DNA from: Owenia fusiformis
Lineage: Eukaryota > Annelida > Polychaeta > Sabellida > Oweniidae
NCBI GenBank assembly: GCA_903813345.2
Contig: CAIIXF020000004.1
Span: 23,933,985-23,997,984, forward strand
Direction: 5' to 3'
DNA: 64,000 nt
This document shows positions 16,934 to 21,426 of the stretch, one piece after another. Made by a program: the position numbers and the translations under genes. The notes below the pieces were generated by a model, which saw nothing but the letters and a program-made list of their open reading frames with translations, was not told the origin of the DNA and searched no databases. Position 1 is the stretch's first letter. Each line of letters starts with the position of its first letter.

Positions 16934-17444
16934 CACTGGTGATCCGGTCGATTAAGCTGGTTACCGAAACGAACCGTTTCGGTAACAAAATGTTGGAACC
17001 TCGAATGTATGATTTTCCCCTTTTCCTTATTACACGCGTAGTAGGCAGAATTCCCACAACATTTTTATCACAAACGTGTGTCAGTATCATATGTTCAAGG
17101 AAATGTACATGTTTGCGAATATATAGTTCAGAAGACAGAATCGTCGATTTAGTACCTCGCTTTAGTTACGTAAACGGTACTTCAAAAATGGTTAAGATTT
17201 GCACTTTTGACCTGTTCCATTTACATAACTGAAGCGAGGCACTAAATCGACGATTCTGTTGTCTTCTGAACTATCTGTTAGCAACCGAGTACTTTTTCTC
17301 AAACATATGATACTGACACACGTTTGTGATTAAAATGTCCTGGGAATACAGTCTACAACATGTGAAATAAGGAAAAAAGAAAAATCGTACCTTTGAGGTT
17401 CCGACATTGTGTGGTAACCAGCATAATCGGCCGGATCACCAGTG
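16934..17444. mobile_element. Foldback MITE, CAC...GTG ends, 5 bp target duplication
   Basis: The termini are CACTGGTGATCC and GGATCACCAGTG, flanked by TAGTG on both sides (16929-16933 and 17445-17449). Other copies of the tandem unit show the empty site as aaatctagtgactac, which proves the 5 bp duplication. Subterminally, GTTACCGAAACG and CGTTTCGGTAAC form a perfect 12 bp hairpin with a 3-base loop at the left end only. The central half also folds back (cagaatcgtcgatttagtac near 17137 mirrors 17236-17257). No transposase. A second copy lies at 35153-35688. Confidence 0.85.
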
Positions 17445-17517: not shown

Positions 17518-18154
17518 TTACAACACTGGTTGATTAGTTTCTGAAGTTTTCTTTGCATACTGTACGCCCGGTATTATTCGCGTGCGATTAACTTTCGCGC
17601 TTTTCGCGATGGTGTTAAATTCGCGAAAAATTATCGTCGCGAAATTGCCAAATAAATCCCCGGGAATTTGTTATTACCCGGGGCTCTGGTGCATTTCATT
17701 TTGTGTAAACGTTTCGTCTAGTGTTATTGGGCGATAATTGGATCTTCAGGACTTCAGTAATGTTCATTTTACGTTGGCTGATTCGGCCCAGTACCTCCAG
17801 TAGGCCCAATAATGATATCGATGACATCATTGCAAATGAAGTGCAAATTGCAAAAGATAACATGATAAAGATCCCAGTTATTGTAAATCTGATCCAACTA
17901 TGACATCAGGTACCGAGTGCAATTACTGTACATCTACTAGTAATTTAACTTGAGAATTCTGAGAATAATGAATTTCAAACTTGTGAAATTCGCGAAATTT
18001 AATAGCCGCGAAACCGTGTTTTCGCAAAATTCGCGAAATTAAAGCTTGCGAATAATACCGGGCGTACAGTAGTCCCTTAAACTGGTACATTTATTGTTTA
18101 ATGCTTGCCTGAGTTTGCCTCGTGTCGTCTTTGAATCTTGCATCATGGCATAGT
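17518..18154 (-). pseudogene. BEN gene exon 4, split by TA MITE
   Basis: The acceptor is TATTTTCAG|AC (ctg at 18155-18157 on plus). Coding text begins with the two bases that complete the split codon from exon 3, then YAMMQDSKTTRGKLRQALNN, and reaches TA at 18070. There the 17560-18069 MITE intervenes. Past it, from the second TA at 17559, the same frame resumes as AKKTSETNQPVL and stops at TAA (17520-17518). The seamless frame on both sides is strong evidence for both the exon and the insertion borders. Confidence 0.8.
17560..18069. mobile_element. TA-flanked MITE rich in TTCGCGAA
   Basis: The ends are TA|CTGTACGCCCGGTATTATTC and its mirror GAATAATACCGGGCGTACAG|TA. The body is unusually CpG-rich near both ends, with repeated palindromic ttcgcgaa words (17610-17640 and 17990-18040). 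At 510 bp it has no transposase. The TA duplication fits a Tc1/mariner-type source. It sits inside the last exon of the BEN gene. Confidence 0.85.
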
Positions 18155-18601
18155 CTGAAAATACCACCATATGTTTTTGGGCCATGTCATGCAAATACAT
18201 GTCTATAAGTTTAAAAAAAGCTCTGTGATGCCAGGTTTAAGAGGAACACATTTTATGTCTAACTTATGCAGTATATTATCTAACAAAGACAAGCCAAGCA
18301 ATATAATATTGAGTAGAATATCAACCAAGGCATTAACAAGACAAAATGTCAACACTGTAAGTTGTTTAATCTAAGCCATATAGGTGGCCTCTGTTTGAAG
18401 TTGAGGTCAACGTGAGAATGATTTCCACATCTCACCACTACTGAGTATTGATACAATTATGTAGTTTGATGTTTATAGGGATTACAGTTGTATTTTCACA
18501 TCATAGAACATTCTATGATTTGTGAACATTTGCCCAAAAGCACAGATGTAGGGAATCTTTTTTAAAAAGACCACCTTTTAATTACTAAAGCAGACACATA
18601 C

Positions 18602-18802
18602 CTAAGATAACTTTGCAAAGTCCAGGGTGCAGCTGGACAAAGTTTTTTTCGCTTCCTGGACTCATTGTCCCTTGGAGGAGTTGTTTTTTATAAATAGCTT
18701 GCCTGCAAGCATGCGTACAATATAGGCACCGTCTTTGCCATCCATCCTCCTCTTCGTTACAGGGGAGACATATACCCCTGACTGAGACAGTAGCTCAATA
18801 TA
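18602..18802 (-). pseudogene. BEN gene exon 3 (BEN domain core)
   Basis: The exon starts with TATTGAG directly after the inserted mariner and ends at G|GTATGT (donor at 18601-18596). It encodes IELLSQSGVYVSPVTKRRM, then GKDGAYIVRMLAGKLF, and after a one-base shift in the A run at 18684-18689 QLLQGTMSPGSEKNF and VQLHPGLCKVIL. That is the usual BEN order: a helix, then LF.KE.LL.G, then the C-terminal strand. Its original acceptor, TTCATTTCAG, is now at 19898-19896 on the other side of the mariner. Confidence 0.8.
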
Positions 18803-19893
18803 CGAGGGGTGATTCAAAAGTAATGGACAAAATTTTATAGGCACGCTTACCTTTACCAGATTTGAATGAAACTGTGTACAAATAAAGATTAATCAATTAT
18901 CTATTAGATGTTAAAATTTGATCAACTAAATGCAAATACATTTTGAGATAGAGCACTTCTCTTGGATCATGGTGCATACACCCGGAATCCATTTTTAAGG
19001 CTATTTTCATCATAATAACAAATGGATTTTCAATTTCGACACGTTGTTGCTTTTGTTCTTCGGTAAGAAGCTTAGGACTCCACTTGGCACACATCCTTTT
19101 GATATTTAGGTCGCATTTTACAATCCTTTGTACTGTAGAGTAGGACACATCTGTAATGGAACTTATTTCTCTCAGTGTCAATCTCCTGTCTGCATTTAGG
19201 ATGGACTCTACATGGTGAATAGTGTTATCAGTGCGGCCAGTCTTGGGCCTTCCAGATCACTTTAGATCTAAGACTCTCGTATCCCCTTCACTAAAATGTT
19301 TGTACCATCGCTCAATGGCTTGCCTTGACAAGGCCTTGTCTCCATGTGTCTTTTTTATTTTCTTGACAACTGCCTGCCTTGTCTCTCCAGTAGCTACCAA
19401 ATATTCAATAACAATGCTTTGCTTAACTTTGATTTGTTGTAAAGTAGACATTTCTTGGATGTGTGTGAGTCTAAGAGTCTGATCTACTTTCTGACTCACT
19501 GTGACTCATCATTCTTAGAAATATCATTGTGATGTCATAGTACAATTGGTTGCTGAATTTAGAACTCAACAGCAAACACATGGGCATGTGAGTCTTGCTT
19601 GACGATTGCATTACCATGCTTGTTAGACATATCATGTGTGGTAATTGAGTCATTAAAACGAAATCAAGCAAAAATGACAAAAACATTCAATTATCATTAA
19701 AAAACCAATTCCACCCATGCTTACCCTTGTTACCATGGTTACGCATAGCTGAAACAATTTCAAATGCATTTAAATGAGAATTCGACACAAAGTAGAGAAT
19801 TGATTGATCTATTCACTGTGAAAAAATTAGACTGATTGGGTGAAATTTAGTATGCCTATAAAATTGTGTCCATTACTTTTGAATCACCCCTCG
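18803..19893 (-). mobile_element. Decayed mariner transposon
   Basis: Terminal inverted repeats begin cgaggggtgattcaaaagta at 18803 and mirror at 19893, with TA on both sides. The minus strand encodes the N-terminal DNA-binding half of a mariner transposase. One helix-turn-helix part reads RQAIERWYKHFSEGDTRV (about 19330-19260) and a second reads LREISSITDVSYSTVQRIV (about 19178-19120), followed by RMCAKWSPKLLTEEQK. The normal DDE catalytic core is missing: only a short tail after HHDPREVLYLK remains before the end. A full mariner is about 1.3 kb with a roughly 345-residue enzyme; this 1.09 kb copy has lost the catalytic centre and is non-autonomous. Confidence 0.9.
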
Positions 19894-19898
19894 TACTG

Positions 19899-20705
19899 AA
19901 ATGAACAAATATTTCTATATTCTATAAAAAATATATATCATATTTTGATTTTTATTTACCTTTTTAGTACAGTACTCAGTACTGACCTCGACTTAATTAA
20001 GATTATAATTTGCAAGTTTTACTCCTGCTTGAAAGTATTTGCAGTACGAAGTGTGAAAACTGCAATCAGACTCTGAATAACTGACTCTTATTGGTTAGAA
20101 TTTGTTATTATATAGCCAATTAATTATAGCAACAATAGGAGTCTGGTTGCAGTTTACATGGACCCTTTGCAGTATACCAATAACAAGCCAATTCATGCAG
20201 ATGTAGAGGTTATTTGTGATGGAGTCATCACTGTACAGTTACTGTACTTCTACTGAATTTGGCGCCCATTTTCATTTGGCAAATCCGCCAAGTTGTTTAA
20301 GTATGCCTAATTCCCCAGTGATTTTAGTACCATTAGTGCATTGTAATATTGCAATTCTGCCAAATTAAGTAGCTGCTAAAGTGTGCACCCACCAACTTTT
20401 AAACCATTACTCCCAATCTTAATGATTTATATATATATATATATTAACAAATATCTCTTCAATTTATTGAAAAAAATCTGCTGTTATTGTCATGATTAGG
20501 ATGACTCATGCTATGATAGGACGACTACACATATCTTAAAGTCTAAGGGATCTCAGTGTGAGCGTTCAAGATTGAGAAATGTCAAACATGACTTAATTTT
20601 AGAAGAAATCTTCCATGTCATACCCTCAAAGAAAGTGAAGTTAAGACTATCATATTTGAAATTGTCAGTAGTTTTGACAGTTGGTCATTCATTAGATCTA
20701 TGTCT
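19899..20705. other. BEN gene intron 2
   Basis: No coding signal apart from the exon 3 acceptor at its end. It contains a short (TA)n run at 20428-20444. AT-rich and otherwise unremarkable. Confidence 0.5.
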
Positions 20706-20711
20706 ACTTAC

Positions 20712-20861
20712 CAGGGTTGGTCTTGGCTGTACTCTTTCTTCTTGGTGACCTTGTCTGTTGTTGGTGTTGGTAGGGGTGCCTCACAGCCCAGCACAGCGGC
20801 TATGCCTTTTTTTCGATTACAGAGCAGAGACTTGGCAATCTTTGGTTCAACTGAACACGCT
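20712..20861 (-). pseudogene. BEN gene exon 2 (charged linker)
   Basis: The exon is bordered by TCTTTCTTCAG (acceptor) and a perfect GTAAGT donor (20711-20706). It is 150 bp long and open in one frame: CSVEPKIAKSLLCNRKKGIA, then VLGCEAPLPTPTTDK and VTKKKEYSQDQP. It ends with two bases that complete a cysteine codon with the first base of exon 3. For joining to exon 1 in phase, an acceptor two bases further in (CAGAG|CG) fits better than CAG|AG; this is unresolved. Confidence 0.65.
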
Positions 20862-21258
20862 CTGAAGAAAGATGATACACTAATGAATATATATGCTGCA
20901 ATAGGCAGTTAATCTCACATTAAGTCCCGAGTCGAAATTCTAGTGAGAACTTTGAATTTAAAGAATAAGCAATTGAACCGCCATATTATTATTGCAACAG
21001 GAACAGTATATGAAAAAATAGAAACATATAAAACTTTTTATGTCTCTGACAAGGCATAACTTTTGTATATTTCAGATAAGCTTAGACTAGTTATAGACTA
21101 GAGCAAAGCTGTGGTCTTTTTAGGGAGTTTCAGCAAGTTAATTTTCTGTAGGAATTTTGACTAAATTTACTAAACCTTATCGGAGGATGAGGAGTCGTAA
21201 TTTTTACAGATATTCAGAAAAGCTCGATAAATAGAATAAATTCGTATATACCACATAC

Positions 21259-21426
21259 CTCCTATCAGAACAATTTGAGCATTATAAAGTCCCGCATGGC
21301 CAGTAAATTTTGCCTGGACTTTAAGATAAGATAACTTTCCAACTCTTTCCTCGGCGATTTGATGGCTTGAAGGGAAGCTACGCTAACCTTGCCTTCATCT
21401 AGCCAGAGCAATATACAGTGTGACAT
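21259..21426 (-). pseudogene. BEN gene exon 1
   Basis: ATG at 21426-21424 starts MSHCILLWLDEGKVS. The frame must shift by one base near 21345 to continue as GKLSYLKVQAKFTGHAG and LYNAQIVLIG, ending at the donor G|GTATGT. The pattern WLDEGK.SV....IK, then a VG...VK..G.YNA.V..IG block, resembles the N-terminal beta-strand module of invertebrate BEN-containing proteins. The start is chosen because upstream in-frame sequence holds stops. Confidence 0.6.

Follow-up and report, generated by a model that had tools for sequence, protein, structure and literature searches.

The window analysed here, a stretch of 64,000 nucleotides (G000:C4:23933985-23997984) in a 498 Mb eukaryotic assembly that was also the genome searched, very probably holds a decayed BEN-domain gene on the minus strand, a pseudogene broken in several places (Table 1). 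Two insertions, their TA duplications, conserved exon boundaries and a frame change are present at the locus, and these lesions suggest that the gene has lost its function. In the reconstruction that we propose, the BEN domain would formerly have been split over two exons (exons 3 and 4 in Table 1) with a phase-1 intron between them, which is the layout of relatives elsewhere in the genome. A non-autonomous mariner would have landed in the TA with which the first BEN exon opens, and a MITE in a TA within the last exon, both elements being of abundant, TA-targeting kinds. Besides these two elements, the frame of the first BEN exon appears to have shifted mid-domain, so that at least one frame change would have accumulated.

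Table 1 Features of the BEN locus, in positions of the window.
Feature	Position	Strand	Evidence and remarks
Candidate exon 1	21259-21426	(-)	ATG frame closes with two stops just before the donor; membership of the gene unproven
Candidate exon 2	20712-20861	(-)	One open frame, good donor; no relative found; membership of the gene unproven
TA target-site duplication, other side of mariner	19894-19895	.	Adjoins the exon 3 acceptor CATTTCAG (AG at 19896-19897)
Mariner, non-autonomous	18803-19893 (1,091 bp)	.	Inverted repeats; dispersed family copies
TA target-site duplication, side one of mariner	18801-18802	.	Also the first bases of exon 3
Exon 3, first half of BEN-like domain	18602-18802	(-)	Starts YIELL in the phase of the paralogues; donor G/GTATGT at 18602/18601
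ORF matching the paralogue-only profile	18892-18665	minus	E = 2.1e-8
ORF matching the paralogue-only profile, other frame	18794-18588	minus	E = 6.5e-4
A-run in exon 3 near the BEN frame change	18684-18689	(-)	Translation and profile matches in two frames
Exon 4, interrupted by the MITE	17518-18154; parts 18154-18070 and 17557-17518 with one TA kept	(-)	Encodes DYAMMQDSKTTRGKLRQALNNKCTSLRDYAKKTSETNQPVL and a stop
ORF matching the paralogue-only profile (exon 4)	18236-18042	minus	E = 2.5e-6
MITE, Tc1/mariner type	17560-18069 (510 bp)	.	Inverted repeat CTGTACGCCCGGTATTATTCGC; TA duplications at 17558-17559 and 18070-18071

The BEN identity of the locus was established through three relatives in the genome: L038 (contig C1), with two exons, L039 (C5), with one exon that reads on beyond the exon 3/4 intron position without an intron, and L078 (C2), with a BEN exon and two similar candidate last exons. 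Against the Pfam BEN family (PF10523, cut-off 23.2 bits), L078 with its exons joined at the splice sites scored 25.5 bits with one last exon and 22.2 bits with the other. The initial annotation had proposed that the joined exon translations be compared with the BEN family profile; exons 3 and 4 of the window, alone or joined, gave no Pfam BEN match, and the support for the assignment is thus indirect. A profile built from the paralogues only, without the window, was used to scan the 2,106 window ORFs of at least 20 residues. Three ORFs exceeded the threshold, all at the BEN locus and in domain order. The joined window pieces matched this profile with E = 2.4e-27; in 2,000 shuffles no value fell below 0.5. 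When a profile of the window and the three paralogues was compared with the PDB, six of the seven matches under E = 1 were BEN structures (Bsg25A, BEND3 and Insensitive/RE55538p), all of them weak (E = 0.04-0.83); profile comparison with the genome's other BEN proteins gave a weak match (probability 10%). Exons 3 and 4 are thus clearly homologous to a protein that passes the Pfam cut-off, and their prediction as a BEN domain holds through these relatives, because L078 exceeds the cut-off, the PDB profile matches are to BEN structures and the paralogue-only profile finds the window pieces. The tail of exons 3 and 4 also matched a Stork_head winged helix, at E about 0.002-0.005 and short of that family's cut-off; since this segment falls within the BEN domain in the paralogues, the match was discarded.

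The two candidate last exons of L078 (L078:40-210 and L078:437-607, minus strand) carry NKCTSERDY and SKCTAERTY, and would allow alternative BEN tails. Separately, a BEN protein with one score (43.6 bits) and one open frame length (148 residues) was found at nine places on several chromosomes (L012-L020), seemingly many near-identical copies, perhaps borne by a mobile element.

The paralogues also fix the boundaries of the two BEN exons. In L038, L039 and L078 the BEN exon begins in phase 0 right behind the acceptor, reading CAG/MVEL, CAG/FTEL and CAG/MIEL, respectively, versus CAG/YIEL in the window. The window, L038 and L078 all have the exon 3/4 intron in phase 1, and in exon 4 both the window and L038 have RDYA at the matching place. 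A search for an intact paralogue free of both insertions returned relatives, but none of them close: over the aligned part they are 33-46% identical, and no close intact paralogue was found in the assembly.

At the exon 3 acceptor, the mariner is bordered by TA on each side, as is the norm for insertions of the Tc1/mariner superfamily, and over their first 41 bases its inverted repeats have a single mismatch. Copies of the family are present on all 12 large contigs, the full-length ones 93-98% identical, together with many shorter derivatives. Searched with 100-base flanks, the mariner did not have its flanks in common with other copies, and nearly all matches ended at the TA or a few bases from it, with a few running up to about 20 bases further. 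Its minus strand holds a transposase remnant with a Mos1-type helix-turn-helix (HTH_48, E = 8.3e-7) and a stop between two ORFs; no catalytic domain was recognised in this remnant in the domain-family search. After the acceptor CATTTCAG, with one TA kept, the bases read TAT ATT GAG CTA (YIEL), and therefore the mariner occupies the first two bases of exon 3. The initial placement of the mariner at the TA directly behind this acceptor was thereby borne out, the exon resuming beyond the element in the phase of the paralogues. If the old acceptor were used today, the frame of the paralogues would enter the mariner end as Tyr-Glu-Gly-stop. Another copy of the family (L071, C9:5317000-5318800) has about 0.5 kb more near one end and an open transposase frame of 205 residues, in which only helix-turn-helix domains, and no catalytic domain, were recognised.

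The insertion in the last exon has the features of a Tc1/mariner-type MITE: it is short, has perfect 22-bp terminal inverted repeats with a TA on each side, and shows no evident coding capacity. Its family is dispersed, with 566 candidate places genome-wide, 40 of which were scored; among these 40 matches the nearest copy was 98% identical over the whole length and other full-length copies 76-90%. On their left side, the other copies show unrelated sequence as far as the TA and become near-identical at the first base of the element. Across the empty site exon 4 reads RDY-AKK, compared with RDYAAR in a paralogue, and over the same site NKCTSLRDYA stands against NKCTGVRDYA in a relative. Exon 4 of L038 is NKCTGVRDYAARP and that of the window, with the MITE site joined, is NKCTSLRDYAKKT. 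Because exon 4 read over the site matches L038, the MITE interrupts a formerly coding exon, a result independent of the argument first made for it, and the claim that the coding frame continues over the excised element is confirmed. TA duplications at both elements, the exon starts of the paralogues and the read-through of exon 4 agree on two TA insertions with base-exact empty sites. Both look like non-autonomous elements of Tc1/mariner type because of their TA and inverted repeats, their many copies and, in the mariner, the helix-turn-helix with no recognised catalytic domain.

Just downstream of the BEN gene, at window positions 16985-17412, lies a long hairpin with arms of 153 bases (82% complementary) and a nested 51-base pair, probably another foldback or MITE-type element.

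Upstream of the mariner the gene model is less certain. The initial annotation had joined four exons by phase, and this part was not upheld. Joined exactly as proposed, the exons have 10, 8 and 5 stops, depending on the frame. The open frame of exon 1 other than its ATG frame fails to enter the open frame of exon 2 at the junction, and the latter reaches its donor in phase 2, at odds with exon 3, which is in phase 0 in the paralogues. The reading frame does not certify the four-exon gene as a whole: it is continuous only at the exon 3/4 junction and over the MITE site, and is broken inside exon 3. Exons 1 and 2 had no protein relatives in the genome and no Pfam match, and in a DNA-level search of their region only stretches of the neighbouring introns recurred in the genome. 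With neither phase nor homology linking them to exon 3, their tie to it failed as well. In L039 and L078 the BEN exon is preceded by a short exon of linker or coiled-coil type that ends in phase 0; an exon of this type was sought between 19896 and 20711 (from exon 2 to the mariner) and not found. Because of the missing relatives and family matches and the missing linker or coiled-coil exon, the four-exon model is a proposal in its N-terminal half, where exons 1 and 2 may represent the 5' part of the BEN gene. There is a somewhat less than even chance, on the same misfit of phases, lack of relatives and absent linker exon, that 20712-21426 is instead a separate remnant or a set of chance open frames and the BEN piece a two-exon fragment, which would be a variant of the pseudogene and not exclusive of it. 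Against this separation, the order and strand of exons 1 and 2 are correct, their donor sites are good, and the start of exon 1 may resemble the N-terminal region of some invertebrate BEN proteins.

It is unlikely that exon dispersal, in which the BEN exon pair travelled as a mobile or duplicated fragment, produced the locus rather than decay of a whole gene in place. Consistent with such movement, a stretch of intron 3, together with the final 10 bases of exon 3, recurs as an 84% copy on another contig (L040:4651-4858; C10:32890650-32890857), where the copy adjoins a tandem array and the rest of the BEN gene is absent; L039, which has no exon 3/4 intron, lies amid transposon-like pieces; and a dispersed repeat family holds a peptide like that of exon 4. 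Yet at the window locus both BEN exons survive, with the intron between them at the conserved position, and a DNA-level search found no second copy of the pair. The repeat family occurs at L074-L077 and about 15 further places (for example L075:1501-1647, minus strand), and also at L079 (C12:381494). Its peptide SIGQLRTIIVNKCTCVRIYASK resembles the last BEN exon of L038, PVGQLRTAICNKCTGVRDYAAR, and matches the paralogue profile with E = 4e-6; the copies carry stops upstream of this BEN-tail-like peptide, which is possibly a captured BEN exon. Because this family carries a peptide like the BEN C-terminus and partial gene copies lie elsewhere, one could picture the BEN exons of this group spreading with transposable elements and the window locus as a single step in recurrent capture and loss of exons, but we regard this picture as quite improbable.

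The decay of the gene, the preferred reading, is further marked by the frame change inside exon 3. LFIKN lies in the start frame, and KQLLQGTMSPGSEKNFVQLHPGLCKVIL in the frame that runs on into exon 4; KQLLQGTMSP likewise lies in a frame other than that of LFIKN. The paralogue-only profile follows the same change, its positions 2-46 matching in one frame (E = 2.1e-8) and 39-70 in another (E = 6.5e-4). With this change and the two insertions, an intact reading frame through the BEN domain was not found. When splice sites were left free within 40 bases, 192 joins were open through exon 3; the best of these ignore the conserved acceptor in favour of one 25 bases inside exon 3, and they also read the BEN exon start out of frame, so that such joins were rejected. 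An assembly error could underlie the frame change, because a six-base homopolymer is nearby. That the gene is functional, with an assembly error at this homopolymer and either transcripts that avoid both elements or an intact allele absent from the assembly, would suit the intact acceptor, donor and exon 4 frame but is very unlikely, since it needs a bypass of two insertions in or at the edge of BEN exons as well as of the frame change and the inconsistent upstream phases, and the four-exon join has stops in all frames.

The locus had been described as an unusually clean record of decay. Its insertion sites are indeed cleanly legible; for a dead gene in a transposon-rich genome, a pair of Tc1/mariner-type insertions is nonetheless ordinary, neat rather than surprising, and every component of the locus is of a known kind. 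The parts of the literature that our search covered offered background on BEN domains and MITEs and nothing specific to such a locus. Although the locus alone answers no open question, it is a well-marked example in which the exon boundaries of paralogues independently certify the points of transposon insertion to the base. For annotation, gene finders should not merge these exons into a working BEN gene.

Compared with known BEN-domain proteins (PF10523; Bsg25A/Elba and Insensitive of Drosophila, BEND3 and BEND6 of vertebrates), the locus has the motif order R.L...LF.k..L..g...LdP......lr.ai..Kc in common. The window copy differs from them in that it is sub-threshold alone and, carrying a frame change and two insertions, cannot encode the domain in its present state. 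The two inserted elements are like Tc1/mariner elements and Stowaway-like MITEs in their TA duplications, terminal inverted repeats and occurrence as multicopy deletion derivatives or MITEs, and the mariner remnant is also like Tc1/mariner elements in its Mos1-type helix-turn-helix. Nothing unusual for these groups was seen in the two elements, and both appear to be non-autonomous.
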